Positions 6,981 to 48,823 of a DNA stretch of 48,823 nucleotides are shown here, piece by piece. The translations under genes were made by a program, and so were the position numbers. Source of the stretch: Calocera cornea HHB12733 (taxonomy: Eukaryota > Basidiomycota > Dacrymycetes > Dacrymycetales > Dacrymycetaceae); contig KV424109.1 in assembly GCA_001632435.1 (NCBI GenBank), forward strand, positions 1-48,823, written 5' to 3'. Below the pieces are notes generated by a model that was given only the letters and a program-made list of their open reading frames with translations, ran no database searches and was not told the DNA's origin. The stretch's first letter is position 1. Each line of letters begins with the position of its first letter.

Positions 6981-9900
6981 TTAGACCATATTCATAGACA
7001 GGGTTTCACCCAGCCGCGCATCTCCAATGATCTGAATGAACAGCATAGCTTCGAAATGATGTTGCCAATCAGGGCTATCTTGCAGGTACCACGGTGAAGT
7101 GCCGTGCTCGAGTGGGAGATATACCTGTTTGGTACACGCGTGGAACTTACAATGAGTGAGGTTGTGGTCCAACTGAATCTGATGAGCAGGTATGAGACCG
7201 GAGTGGCACGTATAAAGGTGGTAGGTGGAGGAAACGTACATAGATAGGAGACGCGGGCAGAAGATAAGGGACACCTGTTGCGACTCGATAGAAGGTTACG
7301 GCTCGGTAGAGAGGGTCGGCAGTGGCATCTTGGGAGTAAGACGAGGGAGGAACCCAATCCCCGACAGACTGCATCGCTGACGCCCGGAGTGGGACTCCTG
7401 TGCCTTGGAGGAATTCAGAGAAAGCGCGATGGAGGGCGAGCTGTTTGGGAAGGGCAAGTAGATCCGTCGGCACGTCGTCCCATCGAATGAATTTAATGAC
7501 ATCTTGGGGCGTTCGAATGAGACGGTCAGGCCACATGGAGCGAATAAACGAGAGCGGGGAGATGCCATTGGGGGTTAAGAACTGAAAGTGAAGATCAGTA
7601 CGCGCATGTAGAGGGAGGTAAGTGTGGGGACGGACGATGTGGCTCAAAGTTTCCGGAGCGAAGGGGGCATTGATGCCTGCGGTGAAGGCGTCTAATGCAT
7701 GTGTATCATGGCGATCGGACAGGAACAAGACTCGATATAGTATAGAAGACAACCAAGCCCGATGCAAGGCTGGTGTTCGGACGGTAGCCAAGTCTCCGTC
7801 CTACAACAACAAGGATGGTAGGAGTCAATGAGAGAAAGCAAGCAAAGGTAGGGGAAAGCAAGGCTAACCTCAACATTACCTGCGCCGTATATGATGGAAG
7901 CAAGAAAATGTTCAGGGTGGTGTGGTTCCTGGATATCGTGAGAGTAAGTAAGTAAGAGGGGAACATGGTGGTAGGAGATGGTAACGGTGAGTAACGTACC
8001 ATACTGTGCGCGATAGGCTTGAGACGCCCGCTGGGTCCCATGGAGTGAAACTCTTCTACAAACCGGGCAATTTCGGGCGCAAAACAACGAAGGGAACGCA
8101 AGTTGATAGTATCCTCTCCAGCGATAGCGACGAGGACAGTGAATGGGGAGAGAGAGGCGGGACCAAACTGGAAGAGCCTCATAAAGACGACGACCAGGAG
8201 TCCTAGAGCAGCAAACTCCACCCGAGCCTCGTCCGTAAGCGTCCGGGCTTCCGGAGGGGCACTGGGACCGAATGACCTGATGCGCAAGGTAGTGTACTGC
8301 CCAAAGGAGAGGGGCATTAAGTGGGTATTGAAGCTTTCGAAAGCCGCTTGACAGATTTCAAGAGCTGCGCCGAGACCGACGCCACGACCTCTAGAGATCA
8401 GGCAGAGGAACTCTAAGCAATAAGGTCTTTCCTGAGGAGGGGAGGAACGTACGCCATGATCGGAAAATGCAGTTCAGACATTAGTGACGGGATAGATCGT
8501 GGGATGTCGGGTACCAGTCCAAGGACGGGTTTGACAGCATCCCGCAGATAGTACCGCAAGGCTTGCGCGGCATCCTGGAGGTTGCTGAACGCCGGATAGT
8601 AGTCTAGATCCAGAGGGGATGGAAGAGGAATGGTGTTGGCGAGGGTGAGCTTCCAAGAAGACATGATTTGAAAGTCGCTGAGGGTTGTCAGAGTGGCGGA
8701 GGGGGCCGGTAAAGGAAGCGCGGGAGGTACTGTAGGGGTCACTGCGGCGGCGGTATTGGTAGGCGTGGGTAAGGGTAATGGGCTGGCAAAGTGAACGGAG
8801 GGACGAATGGGGGGCGGCGGGGCATGTGATGCTGGGGGAGAGGCGAGAGCAGTAAGATCGACAATGGACGAGGAACACGGAGGACGGGGTGGGATGAATT
8901 GCAGGGAGGCGGCGGAAGAGATGGCACCACTGTCGTGAGGATAGGGAGGATAGTGAAAGTGCGGGATACCGGCAGATGGATCTCGGGGGGCAAGGTCGGG
9001 TACAAGGTCGGCAAGAGGGGGTTTCAAAGGTGAAGGTGATCGCATAGGGGGAGGCGTGGGCGACGATGGTGAGGTTCGCGGCCGAAGACGACTCAGAGAC
9101 GAAGAAGGTGGTAGGATGGGTTGTAGAGGTGGTTGAGAGAAGAGGGAGGGGAGCTGCACGGAGGATGCGGACGGTGGAATATTGGGTGAAGTCGTGGGCG
9201 GGACGCGATGAACGGCGGGGACTACGGAAGGCAGCGGGCGGTAGCGAGCAGGAGAGCGGGGGGCAGCCTCGTCGTGAGCTGAAGGAGGATGAGGAGGGCG
9301 AGAGGAGGGAGAGGAAGACTGATGGGGCTGGGTCGGAAGCAGGGACATGGACATGGGGATTTCCGGAGGATGGTTGGGGAGTGGAGGAGGTATCCATGGT
9401 GAGGTGCTGATAATGGGATGGGTTCTAGATTGCAGAGCAGAGGTGGAAATTTCTCGAAGCTCGGAAAGGGCGATAGGTGCCTTTGTTACGGATTAAGTGG
9501 GACGACAGCGGGTGGAAAGCGCACAGACCTTAGAAAGGTGAACACTCGATGGTATGGAATCACTTCGGAAATGGTCCATAAATGGCCAATGGTCGGCAGG
9601 CGAAGAGGGGGACGGCCGTTGAGTGATGGGGCCATAGGGAGAAGCTGGTGGGATATGAAAATTCAGCATACATAAGGGTGGGGATGATAAGTAGGGTGGT
9701 ACGGACCGAATTCAATGACCAAAGGTAAACCGTTGGCTTTGCGCTGCCCACGTACGTATCTAGAAAGAATCTTGAGAATTTGATCGACAGTTTGATCTTG
9801 AACGGCATTCGGGGGGGACATCTGGCCACGATCAGGTAATAGAGGGACGAGGGGCAACGGGGCCTGACAGGAAGGGTAGACGGGCTGGGAATGGTGGGTG

Positions 9901-36156: not shown

Positions 36157-36961
36157 GTGTGGTTGGAGATGCAGGTGCCTATGCCGGGGCTGGGGCAGTC
36201 ACTCGATCACTCACAGCAGCAGCAGCAGCAGCGCGCCCACCGCAGGCAGGTCATAGGCAGCGAAGGCTCGCCTGCAAAGTGCAACCCGCGGGATATAAGA
36301 GGCCCAGCCGGTACAGTACGGCGCGGCACAAGGCGGAGAAGCACGCCCGCACGCCGGAGCCGCGGGAGACGGCCGCGGTGGTTCCCGCTGCCCCGACCAT
36401 ATGGAAAGGCAGAGTTGACAGCTCGATTTGAGGCACTGGGTCTGGTGAGACCCAGCTAGGGTCCCACCCAATTTACCTTTTCTGAGTAAATTAGTCATCC
36501 TAATTTGGGCGCCGACCGAAATGCGGCGCGCAGGCCCGGCTATGAGCCACGGATGACCTCATCATTGTCAGTTTCATTGTTCGTTTCCACTGGGTTCAAG
36601 CACCAACCCTCCCCCCCCCACTCTCCAAACTGTTAAACAATGTTATTTATTCACTAGATTATCATAGTAAATCGATGTTATAGTATACTATACTATGTTG
36701 ATCCAGTTCTGAAGTGGTATCTTGGTGTGCGCCAACGGCGCTCTACGCGATCCAGCAAGTAAGCTGCGCGAAAGAAACAAGATACTCCCCCCGGCCATTG
36801 AACGCCGCGCTCTGGTCCATTGAAGGATGGAAATCGAATACAGTTGGCGTGGTAAGCAATCGCGCACTCCGTGCTCTAGACTATAACCAGGGAACCATGG
36901 GCGTTCCGAACTCGCATTGATATCGTTGATACGTCGTGAAGCACGTCTCGTCGGTAGTGCT
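36157..36961. other. Intergenic region with AT-rich block and one dispersed element copy
   Basis: Upstream of the ABC transporter and downstream of cofilin. It holds a short CAG run near 36213-36231, an AT-rich stretch at about 36635-36700, and one copy of the dispersed element. No gene is seen. Confidence 0.4.
36711..36732 (-). repeat. Dispersed 20-26 bp element, copy 1
   Basis: Reads GCACACCAAGATACCACTTC on the minus strand, one mismatch to the core. It lies downstream of the cofilin 3' end. Confidence 0.75.
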
Positions 36962-37329
36962 TCATGCCTTCGCAACTTTGCTGAGCACTGCAATGATCTC
37001 AGCAGTAAGTGTTTGCCAAGATAACGCAATAGAGGTTCAGAACATACCAATCTCATAGGCGACTTCAGAGTAATCGGTCCTCTGCACTTCGGCAGCAATG
37101 GCATCCGACTGGAGCTTCCTCTTCAAAGCCTCCTTCGACGACGCATATATCATCTTCTGCTTGACCTTGGCATCATCGGTCATCCTGAATAATCAAGTAA
37201 GATCGAAGTGCACTAAGCGGACGCGATAACGGGCAGGGATACCAGGAGATTAGGACGATCTTGTTTCTCTTGCCCCCATCATCCACTTCGAAAGCGAAGT
37301 CGTAGATAGCCCACTTGCACTCATTCTCC

Positions 37330-37945
37330 AGCAAGTAAGCGAAGGGCCCCACGAGGGTGGAAGGGGGGGAGCGAAGGGCCGAGCGAGCGAGCGAGAAGCC
37401 TCGCGAGGGAGGGAGGGGCCTCGCGAGCAAGGCAGGCAGGCCCCGAGCGAGCGAGCAAGGGGGGGCAGCGCAGGGGCCGCGAGCGAGAGGGGCCGCGAGG
37501 GAGCGAGGTGGAGAGGGAGGTACTTGAGTACCTTCCCCAGCCTCAGTTCCTCGAACTTGGCGACACATTCGTCAGAGAGGGAGGTACTTGAGTACCTTCC
37601 CCAGCCTCAGTTCCTCGAACTTGGCGACGCATTCGTCAGAGACACCGATTCCGTTCGTCCAAGGCGAGCGAGCGAGCGAGGGGGGGAGCGACGGGCCCCG
37701 CGAGAGACAGAAGAGCACCGCAAGCGAGCGAGAGGGGGAGCGAAGGGCCCCGCGAGTCAGCGAGGGCGGGTGGGGGGCGCAGAGGCCAGCGAGCAAGCGA
37801 GAGCGCGAGCGAGCGAGAGCGCGAGCGAGCGAGAAGGCCGGCGAGCGAGAGCGCCCGGCGGAGACAGCAAACGAGAGAGGGGCAGCGAGCGAGGCGGACA
37901 GAGAACGAGAGGGGCAGCGAGCGAGGCGGACAGCGAGCGAGCTTG
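37330..37945. repeat. GAGC/GCGA simple-repeat tract inside cofilin
   Basis: Long runs of GAGCGAGC, GGGGGAGCG and GCGAGAGC words fill the space where the middle of cofilin should be. Confidence 0.85.
37517..37652 (-). repeat. Two partial tandem copies of the cofilin N-terminal exon
   Basis: Two copies 64 bp apart of a segment encoding [20 protein letters not shown]; a more divergent third copy ([18 protein letters not shown]) is at 37941-38013. The copies differ at several bases, so they are not simple read duplication of one sequence. Confidence 0.85.
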
Positions 37946-38173
37946 AGTACTTTCCCCAGCCTCAGTTCCTCGAACTTGGCGACGCTTTCGTTAGAGACAC
38001 CGATTCCAGAAGACTGGGTATATAGCCTCGTCAACAGGGATCGACCGAATCAAACAGTGAGACACGAACCGTGATGGGCAGCGACAATGAAGGGGTTCTA
38101 AAGTGTGTGGTGTTGACAGACGGTGGACAAGTAGATGAAGGTTGCTCGCGAGGTGACTTGCGTTGAGCGAGTC

Positions 38174-38193
38174 AAGTAGTATCTTGGTGTGCG
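38174..38193 (-). repeat. Dispersed element, copy 2
   Basis: GCACACCAAGATACTACTTG on the minus strand, about 160 bp upstream of the first recognisable cofilin exon. Confidence 0.75.
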
Positions 38194-38308
38194 TTCTCCA
38201 GGATTCGTGCGTACCACCAATCAAACCAAAGCCAATAAGGGGATCAAACGAGTGACATTCATAGCGTGCATACTGCTGGATACAGGACCGTACAACCTCT
38301 CGCTCCCC

Positions 38309-39217
38309 TCACTCCTTCTTTGCCTTGTACGAGTCGATGCTCTGGATGAGCACCTGCCAGGGGCTAACACCGCGCGCAAGCATCACGATCCAGATGACTG
38401 ACGTTGCTATCAGTGTATGATCGTCGTGCGAGCAAACGGAGACGTACCGAGGACCGCGAGCGCCTTCAACGGGTTCTCGGCGGCAGCTTTCTTCAGCGGC
38501 CCGAGCAGGGCAGCGAGCGCCCAGAGAACCCAGCCGAAAAGGATCGTCACGCCGAGCCAGATGTACTCGTACCACTTGAGCTTCTCGCGAGCAGTTTCGT
38601 CACCAACTGCAGCTCCGTGAGCGGTGCCGAACCCCTCGCAGATGTCGCCTATGAAGGTCTTCAAGGATGCGTATCCGGCGGCAGCACGCATCCCCAGCTT
38701 CTTCTGGCTCTTGAGCAGCTCCTCCTGCTCGCTGTCCTGGAAAATATATCAGCAATGAGAAGCGTACACCAAGATACTACTTCAGACTCACCTCATCCGC
38801 CTTTCCTTCTTCCATCATCCCCAGCTCCTCTGCCCGAGCAGCCCGTCCCGCCGCCGTAAAGTGCGCTCCGTTTGCGCGCAAAACCCCCAGCACGGCGATC
38901 TCCCTGCCCGTTGCGCGTGTGTCGATGAGCTCCACGCAATCGTCGGTGGTAGAAGCCGAGTACGCGGTCGGGCGATTGGCTGTCTCAGCGACGGCGGCGG
39001 CAATGGTCGAAACGGCGGGCTTGGCCGTTGACCCCCCGCTGGCGTCGAGCTCGACCGTCGAGAACGAGGCGGTCGACGAGCGGGATGGAGTCTTCTTGCC
39101 CTCATCGGGCAGCTTGAACGCGCCCACGAGGGCATTACTGACGCCGATCAGAGCCCTGTCCGGCGTATCGAGCTCGTTATCGCTGTCGAGCAGCGAAACG
39201 GTATCATCCGAGTCCAT
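38309..39217 (-). CDS. Small membrane protein of unknown function, three exons, 267 aa
   Basis: Exons 38792-39217, 38448-38736 and 38309-38397 sum in frame to 267 aa. The N-terminal half is acidic and Ser/Thr-rich (MDSDDTVSLLDSDNELDTPD). A helical stretch follows (KSQKKLGMRAAAGYASLKTF), and the C-terminal part has two hydrophobic segments, around YIWLGVTILFGWVLWALAAL and LAVLVIWIVMLARG, ending in YKAKKE. The KAKKE tail fits a cytosolic di-lysine-type ER signal, so an ER or Golgi membrane protein is plausible; this is inference. The first intron (38737-38791) carries a copy of the dispersed element in reverse orientation to transcription. Confidence 0.65.
38763..38784 (+). repeat. Dispersed element, copy 3, inside an intron
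   Basis: GTACACCAAGATACTACTTC lies within the 55-nt intron 1 of the membrane protein gene and takes up over a third of it, a few bases from the donor. Confidence 0.85.
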
Positions 39218-39857
39218 GACGTTGTCGTCCTTGTGGTATGCGAGTTTCTTGAAGAGGTATTGATGATTGAAGGTGAGAGGAAGAGCAAACGGCGTGCGTT
39301 AGTGCTGGCAAGGGTAGTCTCCGTTGCACCCGCTCGGATTCGCACGGGCGGTGCACATGCCTTGCTTCTTCCCCTATTCAAACACGTGTTCGAGCAGGGG
39401 AGGCACGCCGCGCTCCTTCCTTCACTGATAATCTGTCATTATTATCTATACAGACCCGCGCGCATTGACTCACTCAACACTTGCTACCAGTACCCTATCC
39501 CGAGTTACCTTTGCTGTTGAGATAGACAACGACCAGGAGAGCGGCGTACCTCACCACGGCATTGTTCTGCATTTCGATGTCGACCAGACCCTGAGCATCG
39601 TAACACGCGCCAGGCACGAGGCTGGGCGTCAAAGTCACGTGGCTTGCACAGCGTTCTCTTGGAGCGCTGGCAGCGGATTCAGATCCCCTCCTTTCTCTTT
39701 GCAACGTCCACCAATAGCTCACATATCTCTACGCCTCGAATCGAATCACAGAATACCCAGTCCTACTAACTTCCACTGAAGTGAGCATTGATACCCTACT
39801 TCTATACCTCACTTGTGTTTGCCTTGGCTCAACCAAACCTCCCTTCCCCAGCGATCA
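39218..39857. other. Divergent intergenic region
   Basis: Between divergent starts of the membrane-protein gene and the tandem-repeat gene. Pyrimidine-rich DNA precedes the start at 39858. No further gene supported. Confidence 0.4.
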
Positions 39858-40992
39858 ATGAAGATCGACAGCGGTAACGACCCTGCTCTTATCGGAGACA
39901 CGACGGGGGTCATAGGTCCAGGTACGTGTTCTTGCAATACAAACTATCACATCCACTGATACTTAATAAGACAACCCTCATCCCTCCAACCTGGAGTCGA
40001 GGAGCGCACACCAAGATACTACTTCAAGCCACACGACCGGCGTGTCCGGCGTCGGCACCCACCCCGGTGGTCCGGGCTCTGACCCTGGTCCTGGCATTGG
40101 AGTCGCGCGGACGACCAGCATGCCGAAGAGCGCACACCAAGATACTACTTCAAGCCACACGACCGGCGTGTCCGGCGTCGGCACCCACCCCGGTGGTCCG
40201 GGCTCTGACCCTGGTCCTGGCATTGGAGTCGCGCGGACGACCAGCATGCCGAAGAGCGCACACCAAGATACTACTTCAAGCCACACGACCGGTGTGTCCG
40301 GCGTCGGCACCCACCCCGGTGGTCCGGGCTCTGACCCTGGTCCTGGCATTGGAGTCGCGCGGACGACCAGCATGCCGAAGAGCGCACACCAAGATACTAC
40401 TTCAAGCCACACCACCCGCGACGAGCGCCGTGTCAGATCTCCCAATATGAACCGATCTACCGGTCCTTCTGCTATGGACGAAGCCCAAGACGTCTTCAAG
40501 CTCTTCTATCAGTTGCAAGCCGAACCACGCGACAACTGCGCCAACGTCGCAGCTCAAGGCCCCGTCCGTCCTGACTCCGCCAGCAAGTCCAACTCCTGGG
40601 CGCAACAACGCAATGCTGCGGACGTCCTTTGGGACGCGGACGAACTTCCGCCCTATGAACTTGTCCCGAGCGATTCTATTCCGGTGCCTTCTGCCCTCCT
40701 CCGGCCCAGCCAGAGCAACAACACGCGTAGGCTTAAAGTTCCAACGACACACGACACTCGTTCCTACTACAGACGCCGCTACGAGAAAGGATTCAAGCAT
40801 GGGGTGCTCTTGCACAAGGAGGGAAAGAACATCGGACAAGCGGGTCTAGAGCGGATTGGGTTGACATCTCACGACAACTGGGGCCATACTTGGCAGGCTT
40901 GGTGGAACACGCTTTGCATCGGCTACACCCCTGTTATTTCGGTGGAACCCGAGGATGGGGTGTTGAGCGCTCGTGTGGTGCCAACTTTCTGA
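39858..40992 (+). CDS. Unknown protein with 42-aa tandem repeats derived from the dispersed element
   Basis: Exons 39858-39921 and 39971-40992 (49-nt intron) sum in frame to 361 aa. After a short N-terminus (MKIDSGNDPALIGDTTG) come three 42-residue repeats, each with SAHQDTTSSHTTGVSG followed by a Gly/Pro-rich stretch and ARTTSMP, and a fourth partial unit. The C-terminal 180 residues look globular and unique: DEAQDVFKLFYQLQAE, DVLWDADELPPYELVP, RSYYRRRYEKGFKHGVLLHK, and WGHTWQAWWNTLCIGYTPV. I recognise no family. The repeat lies within the open frame and its unit length is a multiple of three, so copy number can change without breaking the frame. Transcription and the N-terminal start are unproven. 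Confidence 0.6.
40005..40408 (+). repeat. 126-bp tandem repeat, three copies plus a partial fourth
   Basis: Exact period 126 bp, with about one base difference between copies in the unit core. Each unit starts with a copy of the dispersed element (cores at 40005, 40131, 40257 and 40383). Confidence 0.95.
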
Positions 40993-41305
40993 TCCTCGTG
41001 ATGGATACCCCGAATCGACTCATGCCGTTGTTTGTTTACCTATAACGTGAACCTATGCCGCTCCTGTAACGCTTGTGTCCGTACGCTCTGTAAGAGCGTA
41101 CACTTACAGGCTACCACTCATTTAATACACTCGTTATTTGTCATTTTCTGTGTTGAAGACCTTGTTTGACCTGTTTTACATACGCTGCAGCTTTTGCAAA
41201 TCAGGGCGATCTGAGCCGATATCGGGACCAATCACTCGATTTAGGGCTCACCATCTCTGCTCACCCCGTCTATGCCCGCTCACCCCATCCATTTCCCACA
41301 TCAAC
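40993..41305. other. Short intergenic region
   Basis: 3' region of the repeat gene and upstream region of the next. It contains a short inverted pair, TACGCTCT and AGAGCGTA, at about 41083-41100. Nothing else seen. Confidence 0.35.
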
Positions 41306-44300
41306 ATGGCAAGCGGCAAGAAACCAAGACGCACAAAGACAAGGTCGATCGCTCCCTTGTACCCGAACTTCAAGCACTGGAGTTCACCTCCTGTATCGAC
41401 GACGGCACCGTACTGGGGTGGGGATGATGCTGCGCCCGAGGCGGACTCTCCCCCGTCTACCGAGGGCGCTGCCATGGAACACCTTCGAGCCACGTTATTT
41501 CCCACTTATTCACGATTTCGCAAGTCGGCTGCAGAGCCTGTGCAGGAGCAGCGGGAGAGAGAAGATTCTGAAGCTGCGGATTCGCCTCCCTCGTCCCAAC
41601 AACCTCCGCCCATCTCCCAATTTGGCCAGGCTCGATATCCTTTCTCTGCTCCTCAAGAGGTCACTGCTCGCACCTCCGACATCATCCCATCAAGTCAATC
41701 AGTAACGTACTCTCCGCTAGAGACACCGACCAGTACTCCGTCGCAGCGGTTATCAGCCTTAGCTACCCCGCCTGAACGGACTCCGCAACCCCCTCGAGTT
41801 TCGAATACGCCTGGCTACCGCAGAAGGCTGGAGCGATATCGCATGCGTCTGGAGGCTAGAAAGAGGCGAGATGAAGCAGAGGCATTTGTCATTCAAGAGT
41901 TGCCCAGCAGTCCTGCATTCGATGGTGAACATGACATGGCCATCGTCGACTTTGAAGAGTTCACCCAGCCGTCCGAGCCTCCATCTGATACCCAATCCGA
42001 CTCGGGTGCTTCACGAAGCGCGACACACGAATCCGACAAGTCCCCTTCTGATTCAGACAGCTGGAAACCTCCTGGCTCGGACGAGGAGGACGAGGATATG
42101 ACATCAGAAGGTGAACAGCAATCCATCCATCCCGACGACTGGGAAGCGGAGCATACCGATGACGACAATGCTATGGACGAGGATCCAAACGATTCCGATA
42201 TCGCCGAGGCTTGGAGAGAAGATCAGGATGGGGCGGTCCTTGAAGAGGATAGCGAGGACGATGACATTGAAGAGTATGGAGACGATGTTGAGATGGAGGA
42301 AGAAGAGGACGACGAGCCTGCCCGGGGCAAGCGTAGACAGGTGGTCGAGGCTGACGATCTGATTGAGTCCGATGAGGATGGGAATGAGAACGGGGACGAC
42401 GTGGTCATGCCGGAGCCTCACGTACAGCGTGAGGCTGAGGAGTTTCCTGCAGTAGAGGAGGACGAGGAGGACGAGGAGGACGAGGCAGAGTACTATGTGC
42501 GTCCTGGCGTCTCTGCCTCGCTGACTTACGCTAATCTCTCGTGCCAGCAACATGTCACAGACATACTCGGAGAACTGGGGGAAATAACATTCCGTGGCAA
42601 ACCCAACAGCTCGGATTCAGCAAGTTCGAGTTATAGTCAAGACCTCCAGCGAGTTTGCGCTGCTAGGGAGCGTGCGGAGGAGACGTTGTTCGATCTCGCT
42701 AAAAGCAAGCCTGGCGATGCCTCTGAAGCAGAGTTTCCGGATTGGCAGAAGAAGTTAATGACTTGTAGTGTACGTGCTTTTCATCCTATGACATCGCAGA
42801 GGTTTGACATTAGAGCGCAGAACTTCATAATCAACTGGATGAAGGTAACTCTGCCTACGGAGACCGAGCGCATCAAGACTGTCATTCGCGTCCTGAGGGC
42901 ACACAGCCAGCATCTTCTAGGCAAGAGAGACAGGGGAGGTGGGGGAGGAGGCGATGCTCGCCCGAAACGTGAAGAAGAGGAAGATCTGGAGGATGTTGCC
43001 GACTTGATCACCATCGCACAACTCAGTCCAGCACAGCGAATACTACGGTGTATGTCGTCCCAGGAGCTCATCGATGACATGGAACGCGATCCTCCGATTC
43101 CTTTCTTCTCCCAAGTTAATCTTCCGGATGCCATTATTGCAGTTCGCAAGAGGTGTGAGTACCTGGTAAGTGTCATCTCGCTACCTCAAATCGAGTGGTC
43201 AGCTCACACATTGTCAGTCCGCCTATTTCGGACTGATCAAGGCTGGAACAGCCAAGGCATGGCTTCAAATGCGTGGACCTCTGGCGGTAACACTTATCAA
43301 TATCTGGACCTGGCATTGCGAGTTCGACGTAGAAGCGATCATAGACCATGTTCGGGATGTTGATCTTGCCTTTGGCGATGATTGGAGCATTCTGGAGCTT
43401 CTGCGGTCCGTCGAGATTGGAGAAGTAGGCTCGGTAGCCGAGCGCTGGTATACCGATCTCTACTCAAAGCGATACCTGCGGCGTATGCTCGCACTCACCC
43501 GCCCTTGGCCGAGCTTTCCGAATTCTAACCTGTCTCGTGTCTCTGCTTTCATGACTCAATCTGGAAGACACTTTGTGCGCATCATTTACAGGTTCTCCTC
43601 CTAACTCATTCTCACTGGCCTCGCTACAGAAAGACACAATCGATCATCGCCGTATGTGGCGCTCACCGCCAACTCACTTCTTCGCACAGATGTTCTTCGA
43701 GTTCATCCGCTACTGCCAGAAATGGCATCTCAATGCCGACATAGAAGAATGGCCAGTACCGCTATATGGATGGCCTCAAGCCGTCGTCGACCAACTCGTG
43801 AATGAGATGTACAACATCGCACCGCCGGGTCCTCTCTTTGCCGACGAGGAGATGGCCGATCTGCAGAATGGAGGGAGACCACTGACTGTCGATGAAGTCT
43901 ACGAGCGTATCGTTCAGCACACAAAGCATATCCTCAACAGACACGACAGAACAATCGCGCATGTTCACAAGAAGCATAAGCGAAAGTCGAGACGGAAACC
44001 GTTTGGCAATATTGCCCCAACGGCACTCCGCGCACCAGCGCCCGGCTTAGAAGCTGACTCGATCATCCCAGATGAAGAAGAGTGCCGCGCAGCGAAGACT
44101 ACCCGAGTCAAGAATGTCCTGCAACACCCGTTTGTTGTGAGTCGATCGGAGTGCTTCCTGCCATGGTACTTATTTGCGTCTTTCTCGACAGTCTGCATAC
44201 GGAACCGAGATGTGCTACCACTGCCGCCATCGTAAACTCGAATCTCGAACGGGACTGAAACGCGGTTGTCATCGCTATGAAGGTAATGGGTGCACGTACT

Positions 44301-44698
44301 GTAGGCGCAGCAACTTGAGATGCTTCTGGAGAAATCCTGCCAAACGGTTGAAGAAAAGTGCGTGTGCTGGATCCCTATTTATTCCGAACAGCCGCTGACA
44401 CTTGACACTAGTACCCAGCAAGGATTGGGACACAAACAAGCCGAATCGGAACCTGGCGCTGAGCATTGACGATCTAGAAGAGGCGATTGCTGTTGCTCAT
44501 TACGAAGGCCATCCTGAGCTCGACAACGCTCCTCCGGAGGTGTGGGAAGAACTGGACGATGAACTGTGGCTGGACGTCTCTGGCGTAGAGAAGCTGGTCA
44601 AAAGGCAGCGACGGGAGGCGAAGGAGAAGAAAGACGCGGAGCGCGTGCGCAGATCTGCTTCGAACCTGTCCACCATACGAGAAAGACCGGAGGAGTGA
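41306..44698 (+). CDS. Acidic, probably nuclear protein with C-terminal six-cysteine motif, 1058 aa
   Basis: Exons 41306-43165, 43218-43574, 43630-44136, 44192-44357 and 44412-44698 sum in frame to 1058 aa. Residues 1-190 are basic and Pro/Ser-rich; 190-410 form a very acidic region (runs such as EEDEEDEEDEAEYY); a helical region with RGGGGGGDARPKREEEE follows; then globular stretches with IWTWHCEFDVEAIIDHV and FFEFIRYCQKWHL. A lysine/arginine run (HKKHKRKSRRKPFG) precedes a Cys-rich motif at about residues 914-950: CYHCRHRKL, then GC, GCTYCRR and LRCFW, giving a C-x2-C ... C ... C-x2-C ... C arrangement that recalls fungal Zn-cysteine DNA-binding motifs without being a standard Zn2Cys6. A charged helical tail ends the protein. 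A chromatin or transcription role is inference. Confidence 0.65.
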
Positions 44699-45333
44699 AT
44701 GCTGGGAGGGTTCATTGTCTGCTACTGTATTATTCGTACGACATAATGATATCCGTCATACTTCTATGTCCGAGTTCACATCCCCCTTGGGCACGCCAAG
44801 ATACTACTTCATCTCCCTGCACACACCAAGATACTACTTCATCTCCCTGCGCACACCAAGATACTACTTCATCTCCCTGCGCACACCAAGATACTAACTA
44901 CTTCATCTCCCTGCACACACCAAGATACTACTTCATCTCCCTGCGCACACCAAGATACTACTTCATCTCCCTGCGCACACCAAGATACTAACTACTTCAT
45001 CTCCCTGCACACACCAAGATACTACTTCATCTCCCTGCACACACCAAGATACTACTTCATAGCGCGATTGCTGCTCGATTTGGGGCATTTGTCAGGGCGG
45101 TGCCTGATACAGCAGGGCGGGGTTGCCTAACACCCTTACCCCGAATCGAGCCACACGACAAATAACATAAACAATAATTATCATTATTAGTATGTTGCGA
45201 TCAAACAGCATAGTATCCAGTAGATCTAAGGTACCTAAGTGTGTAAGGAGCGATTGTGGGCAAGATCGAGAAGGAGCGTGGTGATGCAAAGGCGTGTACT
45301 ATGTTCAAACGGATGTCGCATACGGCGACAGGA
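44699..45333. other. Convergent intergenic region
   Basis: Mostly occupied by the 30-bp array; the rest (45061-45333) is AT-rich and shows no gene. It lies between the 3' ends of the acidic-protein and alpha-kinase genes. Confidence 0.45.
44791..45060 (+). repeat. 30-bp tandem array of the dispersed element, nine units
   Basis: Unit ACACCAAGATACTACTTC plus ATCTCCCTGCGC. Seven units are 30 bp; two (starting 44881 and about 44975) are 34 bp because of a 4-base insertion making TACTAAC. It starts 93 bp after the stop codon of the preceding gene. Confidence 0.95.
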
Positions 45334-47930
45334 TCACTTGTCGCCTTGCTCTGTAGGAGGATGTTCTTCTGGGACGTTGTCTGCCCTCATCGAGTCATTG
45401 AAGCTCTTCAGTCCATAAGCAATGCAGTAGGTGGTACAGACATGCTGTGTCTCAAATGCAGCAAATGCCTTCGGTACATTCCCGTCACCAAAGAGCTTCT
45501 TGCGATCTTTGATCTCCCTATCGTCTAGTAGTCAGTGCCTGATCCGCTACCAGTTGCTTGTGCTTACGGGCTTGTCATGATCTGTGGGTCTGTGAGCAGC
45601 CCGTTGCAGCCTGGGTCAAATGAGCATAATGTAATTTGAGAGGCTTCGCCAGGACACACACCTTGGAAGTCGGTAACATAGACCAGTTTTCCAGTCGCCT
45701 CGTATTGTACATGTTGGCAGAAGGAGAGGAACGTCGCTATGTTACCCTCCAATCCCGTGGTAACTCGAGGAACCGCACTGCTGTTATGAATGTACTTGAC
45801 GAACTTCTCCGGTTGACCGTCAGTCGGAATGAGCTCTTCCACAAGGTAAGGTGTGCAGTGCCTCGTAGCTCGGTTCTTGTTCTTTGGAATGGTCGCCAGC
45901 TGAACACGGAACAAGCCGCAGCGAACAAATCGGACCTTAGGAAAGGTAATCAAGTTGATGAGATCATCGGGCCCCGCGGCTGCCTTCGCTTTATCGATGA
46001 GTCGGTAGACGTGTGCTTGCAGAGAGCTCGCCCACGTCGAGCAAGTGATCTCACCCGCGAGCTTTTCCTCTTCCTGCTCCTTGCCCAGACGGACCAGGCC
46101 CTTCTGGGACCCAGTGGCAGGTGGTGTACTGCCGTCTGTGACGGGCACATACCAGCGCTTGAAAGCGACATCCACCTTCGTGTTGATGGCAAACGGAGAC
46201 TCCGACGAGTGGAGATGGTCTTTAGAGATCTCGTGCAGAACAAACGTGCCTGGATGCGCGGTTTTGAAAGATCCCTTTGGACCAAGAGCAGATGCAGCCC
46301 GTTCGTCGACCGTAATCCGCGCAGTCGATCCCAGCATAACCCAATCAACCACAAAGCGAATGCGATACCGAATGAGGTCGTCGAACTGGCATACAGGAGC
46401 CGGAATAAAGATCCCAGAGTCGCAGAAGACGCCTAGAAGGTGGGGTCATTGCGCAGCCGACGACAGAGGGTAAACAAGACCGACCATATGGCAGTGAGTG
46501 ACTACCAATCGAGGCTTCGCTTTGCAAGAGAGCTTCGCGGATCTCTCCAGGATCCAAGGGGTCGATAGGCGTGCCCCAGCTGTCGCCAGAGGCTGGAGGG
46601 TTAACGCCAGAGCCGGTGGACTTGGAGACCTGAGTACTAGGAAGATCCGAAGTAGTATCTTGGCGTGCGCTCCTATGCACGGGAGCAGCGGGGACAGGGC
46701 GATCCTGTCTATCTGCTTCGTGGGAAGGAATAGATTGCATGCGCTTAGCTTGAGGTGTGCTTTGTGCACTTGTCGACTGGCACATGGGATCAGTAATAGA
46801 GCTTCCCCCGATAGGATTGCTGAAACTCACCTGTTGCGTGCCACGACTCCGCTTCCTCCCAGTGCACTTTCGAGGTGTTGTTGACATAGGAGAGGCACTC
46901 GTGTTGAGCTGGAGGGACACTTCTTCTATGTGAAGCTGGACTTTATCGTAGATATCGGGCTCCATCACGAGGCGAACATTGAAGGATTTTCCGGCGATAA
47001 AGACACGTGCGCTTGATTTTCCGTGTTGTCCGAAACATTCTCCGTAGAAAAGAGGATCGGATGGGGGGAACCGCTCATAATAAGTCCCATCTTGTCCTCG
47101 GAGGGTGAAGTGTTCAAGGTGGAATACGAAACCAAAGGTCTTCTCCATAAGGGGTCGCTGAACCATGGAGAAGAGCATCGATTTGAGGTCAATGCGATTG
47201 ATCTTGGCCGGAACTTGCTTCTCACGATCTTCAATGTTCTATGACAGATGAGAATGGCGCGCTCAACCAATAGAAGGAGCTCACATAGAAGCTCTTTGAG
47301 CCAGATCGACCGTGCTCCAAATAATGTACCAGCACCTTAACGCTGATCATTTCCGGTTTGAATGAAGCTGCATAGGCTTGCTTGGAGCGCTTGGCAAGCT
47401 CGGATTGATAATGCAGATGCTCTCTGGTATAGCCTCGCGAAACGGGTAGCGAGGGATACAGGACTGGAGCGGCGTGTAGAGGTTGACCACGCGGAAGATT
47501 CAGTGTCCCAATGGCCTGCACCTGCGACCCGCCAACTGAGAGAGTTGTCAGATACTCATTGAGCTCTCTAAGTACTATCGTACTTACTCTGCTGCTTGGC
47601 TCGATGATTCATTGTCCTGAGTGTGTCCGGGTCGGGCAGTTGAAAGGGGTAGCGCTCGTAACCGGTGGGGTGTGTCGAGGGGCGCAGCTCCGTTCGTTTC
47701 GCCGTGCTTTGCCTTGATTCGTACTTTGCCCAGCAAGGAGGACAGACGGAGATGAGAGAATGACCGTCAAGGTCCTTCATGCGATGGAAAAGCTGGCCGA
47801 CAGGAATGATATGATTCGGACCAGAAAGGCATTGATCTTGGCGATCACACGGAACTGGGTTCCGGGCCTTGAAGGTCATGGCCGAGGGAAACAGGAGCAC
47901 GTCGTCGGTATTAGGGGGGAGAGGGGGCAT
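45334..47930 (-). CDS. Atypical alpha-kinase family protein, 798 aa
   Basis: Exons 47588-47930, 47285-47535, 46485-47238, 45568-46432 and 45334-45517 sum in frame to 798 aa. Alpha-kinases (MHCK/eEF2K type) phosphorylate Ser/Thr in helical targets and are expanded in Agaricomycetes. The kinase domain is at about residues 450-785: VAFKRWYVP (likely ATP-binding Lys), FVKYIHNSSAV, FLSFCQHVQYEATG, VTDFQGV, LLTDPQIM, then FGDGNV, and the zinc-site-like HVCTTYC near the C-terminus. The N-terminal 114 residues have a Cys/His cluster (PCDRQDQC, H, CPPC) that may bind zinc; a middle region with LVHYLEHG and VRLVMEPD leads to a Ser/Pro-rich linker. That linker contains ARQDTTS at about residues 387-395, encoded by the dispersed element. 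The target protein is unknown. Confidence 0.8.
46649..46670 (-). repeat. Dispersed element, coding copy in the alpha-kinase gene
   Basis: GCACGCCAAGATACTACTTC on the minus strand, in frame within the linker exon. Confidence 0.9.
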
Positions 47931-48668
47931 ATTGAGAGAGGACTGAAGGAGGGTTGAGGCGTCTTAGTGCATATGCCGGACCACAGTCGTGGTAGGCTGC
48001 TTATATGGTTTTGGGGGGATGGTGATGAGGGTGCTGGGGGGGGGGGTGAAGTAGTATCTTGGCGTCGTTCTCCTGCCAACTGAGATCCGTCTTGCCAGGA
48101 AACTGGCTGACTCAGTGCTCCAGGAGTGTGCACCAAATTAAACGTGGTTCCGAGCGAAAAGCGGCCAACAATTGCTAAAGAGGCCAAATACACGGCCTTA
48201 GAAGCTAGAACCGAAGTTGAGGGAGCTGGTCGGCAGGCCGACATTCCCACCTCGGGCGGATAGGCGGAGCATCGCTCTCATCAAGGGATACGAAAAAGAA
48301 GAAGAAGGACCGTATACACTCGGCCGCTGCAATTAGCACGGCATATCGGGCGTATAGAATGATTGGACGTGTTTGTGGCCTGGATCTGCCTGTCAGCCGA
48401 CTGACAGCATTCCGCATTTCGGAATGGACAGGTTGATGGTTTCAATCAGCAGAAAATATAATATTACACGGGAGGTGCAGGAAGCAGGCGCCCCGTTTCC
48501 ATTTTCCATGATATTTGACAGTGGTATTCGATTCAGGGCACCGGAGAGAAAGCGCCGAGCGATCATCAGGCGTTGTAACTGTAAGCCCTGCTTACCCAGA
48601 ATTCCATTCACACCACTCCTACAACTTTCATATACGACACTCCTAATATTTCCTGAACGTCAACTGTT
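47931..48668. other. Upstream region of alpha-kinase
   Basis: Contains one dispersed element copy and a poly-G run near 48036-48046. Short ORFs here have no clear coding character. Confidence 0.4.
48048..48068 (-). repeat. Dispersed element, copy upstream of alpha-kinase
   Basis: ACGCCAAGATACTACTTCAC on the minus strand, about 120 bp before the alpha-kinase ATG, next to a poly-G/C run. Confidence 0.85.
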
Positions 48669-48823
48669 GGGCCCCACTGGGGCTGCATGCCGAGGGCTAA
48701 ACCCTGACACCCTCTCAACATGCCGGAGCCGCATCCCCGGAGCCCCCGAGGGGCTGTGCACCCAGGTGATCCCTGACGCCCTCTCAACATGCCGGAGCCG
48801 CATTCCCGGGCCCCACTGGGGCC
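48669..48823. repeat. Tandem repeat of about 70 bp, cut by the window edge
   Basis: Units begin near 48669, 48738 and 48808; each includes CCCTGACRCCCTCTCAACAT and GCCGGAGCCGCAT, and a GGGGCYSSR-type GC palindrome. The period is 69-70 bp. The array continues beyond the window, so it may be a satellite or the edge of a longer element. Confidence 0.8.

Follow-up and report, generated by a model that had tools for sequence, protein, structure and literature searches.

Private, dispersed sites that change in concert along IS3EU-like DNA transposons of Calocera cornea

General features of the element

The window analysed here is the whole of one contig (KV424109.1, C196; 48,823 bp) of Calocera cornea HHB12733, a fungus of the class Dacrymycetes whose genome is composed of 32.1 Mb in 302 contigs. 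It contains part of a DNA transposon, named E1 (36400 to C48:2851; 15,244 bp), with five genes (A to E), along which a short word is repeated in both orientations (Table 1). The word GCACACCAAGATACTACTTC has 18 matches at up to three mismatches in the window, on both strands and all within 36711-48067, against a chance expectation with a mean of 0.00; none of 100 shuffles gave 18. The original prediction, made from the letters of the window, had reported about 18 copies at seven coordinates, four of them in one tandem and nine in another, and none in the first 36 kb. Its coordinates are correct to within one base, the arrays are present as 126-bp and 30-bp tandems, and every copy starts from 36711 on. 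The settings that it gave (intergenic DNA, an intron and two coding exons) agree with our own gene reading, whereas its flanks, GGAGC before and A after, are constant only in part; the conserved unit is instead about 24 bp long, and column identity drops to near chance just outside it.

The genome was searched with a 17-bp core of the word, and the resulting counts are lower bounds. At up to one mismatch there are 18 matches, 16 in the window and two in contig C48 (2321 and 2345), and none was found outside E1 in the 32.1 Mb. At two mismatches 12 further matches are scattered on other contigs, and the reversed pattern gives 4. The genome-wide count that had been proposed as a check thus confines the close copies to C196 and C48, and the set first described as lying within 11 kb of the window gains two copies in the adjoining contig, for a total of 20 in E1 (18 in the window and two in C48). 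The proposed alignment of flanks gave an identity near chance and no constant duplication.

The last 31 bp of the window are identical to the first 31 bp of C48, and the joined element encloses all 20 copies. Its termini read TATGG..CCATA, with the 6-bp target duplication CGACCA on both outer sides. The original prediction had seen neither terminal inverted repeats nor constant target duplications: this holds for the flanks of the word, while the repeats and the duplication that do exist belong to the 15-kb element. Among the natures that it offered for the word, a binding site or part of a larger element fits, though the element shows no visible degradation. E1 appears to be single-copy in the genome, because the inner 22 bp of its end have no other genome match at up to three mismatches. 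The contig breaks within repeats (CCTGACGCCCTCTCAACATGCCGGAGCCGCAT and variants, window 48660-48823), and since this sequence is so rich in repeats, tandem copies may have been collapsed at the end of C196 and the true length of E1 there may differ.

Table 1. Features of E1 and limits of its relatives (positions in the window unless a contig is named)
Feature	Position	Strand	Remarks
E1, part in window	36400..48823	+	Continues to C48:2851, 15,244 bp in all; from contig overlap, inverted ends and duplication
Left terminal inverted repeat of E1	36400..36435	+	36 bp identical to inverted right end (outer base C48:2851)
Target duplication CGACCA, left copy	36394..36399	.	Right copy directly after C48:2851
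Contig overlap	48793..48823	.	31 bp common to start of C48, which carries the integrase gene, S8 and the right end
Site S0	36711..36730	-	Near left end of E1
Site S1	38173..38192	-	Past 3' end of gene A
Site S2	38764..38783	+	Predicted intron of gene A
Site S4	40006..40403	+	4 copies, 126-bp in-frame tandem, exon of gene B
Site S5	44791..45058	+	9 copies, 30-bp tandem, directly past stop codon of gene C
Site S6	46649..46668	-	Variable coding linker (exon) of gene D
Site S7	48048..48067	-	Upstream of gene D
Site S8	C48:2321 and C48:2345		Two copies in adjoining contig
Gene A	38310..39217 (approximate)	-	Membrane segment probable by eye; colinear homologues in E2 and E3; no Pfam match
Gene B	39858..40992	+	Two exons by own reading; homologue in E3; no Pfam match, no known family
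Gene C	41306..44698	+	Labelled 'Putative Zn2Cys6 domain' PF26625; candidate reader of sites
Gene D	45564..47930	-	Alpha-kinase domain PF02816, E 1.7e-6
Gene E (integrase)	about C48:590-2290	+	Integrase core PF24764, E 5.8e-9
E2	C260:10649-23298		12,650 bp; duplication TCATTC
E3	C78:105797-118664		12,868 bp by aligned repeats; no clear duplication
E4	C8, repeat cores at 9522 and 22254

Regarding the genes, the integrase of gene E matches CALCODRAFT_433971 at 99%. The PF26625 label of gene C comes from precomputed data, where it is attached to eight of the ten proteins listed (P0121 is among this evidence), and a six-cysteine pattern is visible in the gene C frames of E1, E2 and E3; a comparison of the gene C profile with solved structures gave a best E of 0.58 and was not used. 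An Rfam scan of the window at the gathering score gave no match, and no tRNA genes were found in it. Between S0 and S1 (37041-37940) E1 holds part of a cofilin gene (Cofilin_ADF in Pfam, E 4.2e-24 with a hand-spliced query), in a region that also has a 64-bp stretch in two tandem copies and GC-rich GAGCGAGCGAG repeats. This fragment is probably captured host DNA, which makes E1 longer than E2 and E3.

Relatives of E1 and assignment to IS3EU

A query with the integrase found 91 matching pieces at many loci of the same genome, and three relatives closed by inverted repeats could be delimited: E2, E3 and E4. The end core GGCWRAGTKGACAGCTC is matched exactly at 10 positions of the genome: eight are the pairs of E1 to E4, and the others lie unpaired at C54:175382 and C9:326627. 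An integrase and a GATGACATTTTACAAAG word are found in C54 too, so that a fifth element, truncated where the contig ends, may lie there. The proteins of E1, E2 and E3 are colinear along the element, with chained pieces 35-88% identical (a few of them shadow frames), and E4 is known from its integrase, alpha-kinase, ends and sites alone. At several other loci (C34:215290, C94:124645, C2:387164 and others) PF24764 scores far better than in the E1 integrase, with E values down to 2.5e-63.

Fungal IS3EU elements have inverted repeats of more than 30 bp, ends of the form TAYGG..CCRTA and 6-bp target duplications (PMC12730594); TA..TA ends and, usually, 6-bp duplications are also given for IS3EU elsewhere (PMC10045372). 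The ends found here are TATGG..CCATA in E1 and TACGG..CCGTA in E2; in E3 the right end fits (TATGG) and the left is altered, and those of E4 are known only as the 17-bp core. The 6-bp duplications are CGACCA in E1 and TCATTC in E2, with none clear in E3. In all four elements an alpha-kinase gene stands beside the transposase gene in opposite orientation. E1 therefore fits the IS3EU superfamily, as judged from its ends and gene order.

E1 also contains six copies of another word, CAAATCGAG, both ends included (36422, 43187 and 45074; C48 289, 2550 and 2821), and one more copy lies outside E1 (22885) in the 58.8-kb joined sequence. The similar word CCTAAATCGAA has three copies in E3 and two in L061 of E4. 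CAAATCGAG and CCTAAATCGAA are possible subterminal sites of the transposase.

Each element has its own motif

The relatives carry dispersed sites as well, with a different spelling in each. The E2 word GTGACATTTCACC has eight of its nine exact genome matches within E2, and at up to two mismatches it has ten sites there plus three reverse matches, which overlap sites because the E2 core is near-palindromic. The E3 word AGTCACCTTTTACC has ten sites at up to two mismatches and one doubtful site at three, while six of the nine exact genome matches of the E4 word GTGACATTTTAY lie within E4. Counting spread copies of any one 11-mer, with low-complexity words excluded, we obtained seven each in E1, E2 and E3, against at most three when each was Markov-shuffled 20 times; in seven control stretches (12.0, 12.0, 12.3, 7.1, 10.6, 15.0 and 5.3 kb, the C18 locus being one of them) the spread copies of any 11-mer did not exceed three. 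The places are partly tandem: S5 has nine copies at 30 bp in E1, three at 45 bp in E2 and one in E3. The sites, their places and their private spellings are established in E1 to E4 by comparison of their sequences.

Short words are very dense in two more distantly related integrase loci, in pieces of about 3.5 kb: L055 (C43) has 19 copies of ACTGGTC and L062 (C5) has 28 of CGACCA, both words being picked after inspection. These are the 2 of 50 integrase loci (some overlapping) with at least five spread copies of a 9-mer, whereas 11 control chunks reach at most three; sites as sparse as those of E2 to E4 would escape such a scan in pieces of this length. Genome-wide, the 12-mer words of C43 and C5 gave a weak result, with 3 of 14 and 3 of 25 matches in the expected contig and 9 and 25 matches for the reversed controls. 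The word pattern of these two loci is much denser than that of E1 to E4.

Sites keep their places and orientations

Analysis of the positions of the sites in E1, E2 and E3 used matching protein pieces as anchors, with tandem copies counted as one site and the S8 pairs of E1 and of E3 entered as midpoints. The mapping limit was preset at 200 bp, and the random test used this limit and the median; the limits of 62 and 105 bp given below were read off afterwards. Sites of E2 mapped to E3 with a median miss of 23 bp, seven of eight within 62 bp, and none of 20,000 random placements was as good; orientation was the same in seven of eight, S8 being the one that differs. From E2 to E1, six of eight sites fell within 105 bp (matched by 4 of 20,000 random placements) and seven of the eight nearest pairs had the same orientation, with S1 off by 309 bp beside extra DNA in E1. 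From E3 to E1 the agreement was five of nine within 200 bp (matched by 111 of 20,000 random placements), with the same orientation in seven of the nine nearest pairs. All six exact sites of E4 mapped to E3 within 54 bp and in the same orientation, a result not reached on position alone by any of 200,000 random sets; the E4 word was not found at the S5 and S7 places among its exact genome matches. S2 falls within a predicted intron in both E1 and E3; in E2 it is flanked by the same anchors.

The original prediction had read the copies as evidence of recent mobilisation or conversion of a short insert, and near-identical copies in mixed orientation over 11 kb would agree with that. This reading is contradicted by the conservation of places and orientations between diverged elements, by the lack of any core copy at up to one mismatch outside E1, and by flanks whose identity is near chance and which show no duplication; tracts of 24 bp are, moreover, short for gene conversion. 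A short mobile insert or gene conversion is rejected because places, orientation and flanks speak against insertion, and we regard it as highly improbable.

Sequence turned over in concert within elements

In order to compare spellings, the 24-bp sites of E1, E2 and E3 were aligned, with one copy per place (Table 2). Orthologous sites of two elements are no more alike than non-orthologous ones, and so retain no memory of place, whereas in their ends the same three elements have 22, 21 and 22 of the first 25 bp in common. The spelling of the sites has therefore turned over in concert within each of E1 to E3.

Table 2. Identity of 24-bp sites within and between elements
Comparison	Within element	Orthologous	Non-orthologous	Shuffled sites
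E1	0.85
E2	0.83
E3	0.85
E1-E2		0.41	0.41	0.37
E1-E3		0.35	0.37	0.36
E2-E3		0.58	0.56	0.37

Among 2,000 shuffles, the observed likeness of motifs was reached by 0 for E2-E3, 13 for E2-E4 and 53 for E3-E4, compared with 115 for E1-E2, 606 for E1-E4 and 657 for E1-E3. The E2 motif is thus alike to those of E3 and E4 beyond shuffling, and the E1 motif is not clearly alike to any of them; the spelling seems to drift stepwise among E2 to E4, and further to E1.

At two places, S4 in gene B and S6 in gene D, the sites of E1, E2 and E3 are part of open frames, but the peptides that the three encode are unrelated, which argues that DNA, not peptide, is kept. In E1 the word is translated as SAHQDTTS within gene B and as SARQDTTS within gene D; an explanation at the peptide level was rejected, as E2 and E3 encode other peptides there and our gene reading puts six of the eight E1 places outside coding sequence.

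A possible self-marking system and its alternatives

The explanation that we favour, with a probability of roughly 0.6, is that the 20-mer is the visible part of self-marking sites of about 24 bp, read by a protein of the element that acts against silencing in the manner of the VANC proteins of plants. The sites would be double-stranded DNA targets of one sequence-specific and fast-evolving protein, for which gene C is, by its label, the best candidate; each element would mark its own DNA along its length by its private motif, and the bound protein, less surely and by analogy, may keep the element from being silenced and let its genes be expressed. Private spelling, concerted change and fixed places would be expected together, because one factor would act on the sites of its own element and not on those of its cousins. 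Since conservation extends to the ends but not to the motif, the transposase is probably not the factor that reads the motif. With a palindromy of 0.86 (86%), the E2 core GGTGACATTTCACC would suit a dimeric protein. We advance more hesitantly, at somewhat short of even odds, the wider proposal that fungal IS3EU elements may have evolved sequence-specific self-recognition (anti-silencing) independently, with fixed, inherited addresses of about 24 bp, an address and a reader that change together, and relatives that no longer help each other.

Several observations weigh against this explanation, which is drawn from the comparison of sequences. The Zn2Cys6 label of gene C was not reproduced by our own Pfam scan, and the structure model of its homologue P0128 is poor (mean pLDDT 42.9). 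Palindromy is weaker outside E2 (0.67 in E4, 0.55 in E1 and 0.50 in E3), so that only the E2 core is strongly palindromic. The places are not kept without exception: S3 of the relatives is absent from E1, S8 has in E3 and E4 the orientation opposite to that in E1 and E2, and S7 is off by 335-586 bp in the comparisons with E3 (335 bp for E2 to E3). C18, with a related integrase, has no such repeats, and the other integrase loci beyond E1 to E4 are mostly covered only in part. VANC motifs are 8-9 bp long (PMC5735166), unlike the sparse sites of about 24 bp described here.

The sites could instead be ordinary signals of gene control (promoter, terminator or insulator), read by a factor of the element or of the host and without a role in anti-silencing. 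Every one of the five genes does have sites at it or nearby, some of them past stop codons or upstream of starts, but sites are also found within exons and an intron and in both orientations to the genes, and a host factor would not account for a different spelling per element in one genome; we consider this unlikely. It is unlikely to nearly the same degree that they are extra binding sites of the transposase, as internal or subterminal enhancers of transposition or marks against self-insertion. DNA transposons commonly have subterminal repeats in both orientations, and S0 and S8 are within about 1 kb of the ends. The sites, however, are found throughout the interior, also in an intron and in two coding exons; the ends agree at 21-22 of 25 positions across elements while E1 sites resemble E2 and E3 sites no more than shuffles do; and CAAATCGAG, which is present in the ends too, is a better candidate for transposase sites. 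A further alternative, which we hold to be less likely again, is an element-borne small RNA of about 23-24 nt that would target all sites in trans and might be produced from the S5 array. A unit that stays about 24 bp long as its spelling changes, the sharp borders of that unit and the tandem S5 array of E1 and E2 would be consistent with it, whereas degenerate columns stand beside invariant ones inside the unit, as is more typical of protein sites, and the orientation to genes is mixed yet conserved.

Comparison with known systems

Subterminal repeats of Spm/CACTA transposons are short sites in both orientations, read by a protein of the element and clustered near its ends. The sites of E1 are likewise short and in both orientations, but they run through the interior while the ends are conserved. 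E1 shares with fungal IS3EU elements the TAYGG..CCRTA ends, inverted repeats of more than 30 bp, 6-bp duplications and an opposed alpha-kinase gene. In fungal IS3EU elements that bear a TET/JBP gene, this gene is located between transposase and alpha-kinase genes of opposite orientation (PMC12730594); in contrast, no TET/JBP domain was found in the 15 pieces of E1 scanned against Pfam, a scan made on E1 alone. The private dispersed sites of E1 go unmentioned in the portions of the IS3EU descriptions available to us, and no such site sets in fungi came up among the papers listed in searches of the open PMC literature on IS3EU and alpha-kinase, on transposons of Dacrymycetes and Calocera, and on basidiomycete anti-silencing.

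Places that stay while the sequence at them is replaced in concert preserve, in nature, a record of how many DNA sites shifted jointly, presumably along with the protein that reads them. If that protein is found, it becomes directly testable how a DNA-binding protein shifts its address without losing all of its sites at once: this one genome offers four worked examples, and 24 alpha-kinase matches point to further related loci.

A parallel is found in Arabidopsis, where VANDAL elements contain short motifs, often in tandem, to which VANC proteins bind. These proteins cause methylation to be lost throughout the elements, and joint evolution of the proteins and their motifs is proposed (PMC5735166, PMC10398659). 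As far as these accounts extend, E1 to E4 are similar in having short private motifs along the element, partly in tandem, that change together between relatives. They differ in that the sites of E1 to E4 occupy fixed, inherited places and the binder is here only a candidate, and in that the VANDAL transposase is of the Mutator type whereas E1 matches the integrase core PF24764. In elements in which the TET/JBP gene was not found, such a system would, if true, be a fungal counterpart to plant VANC.

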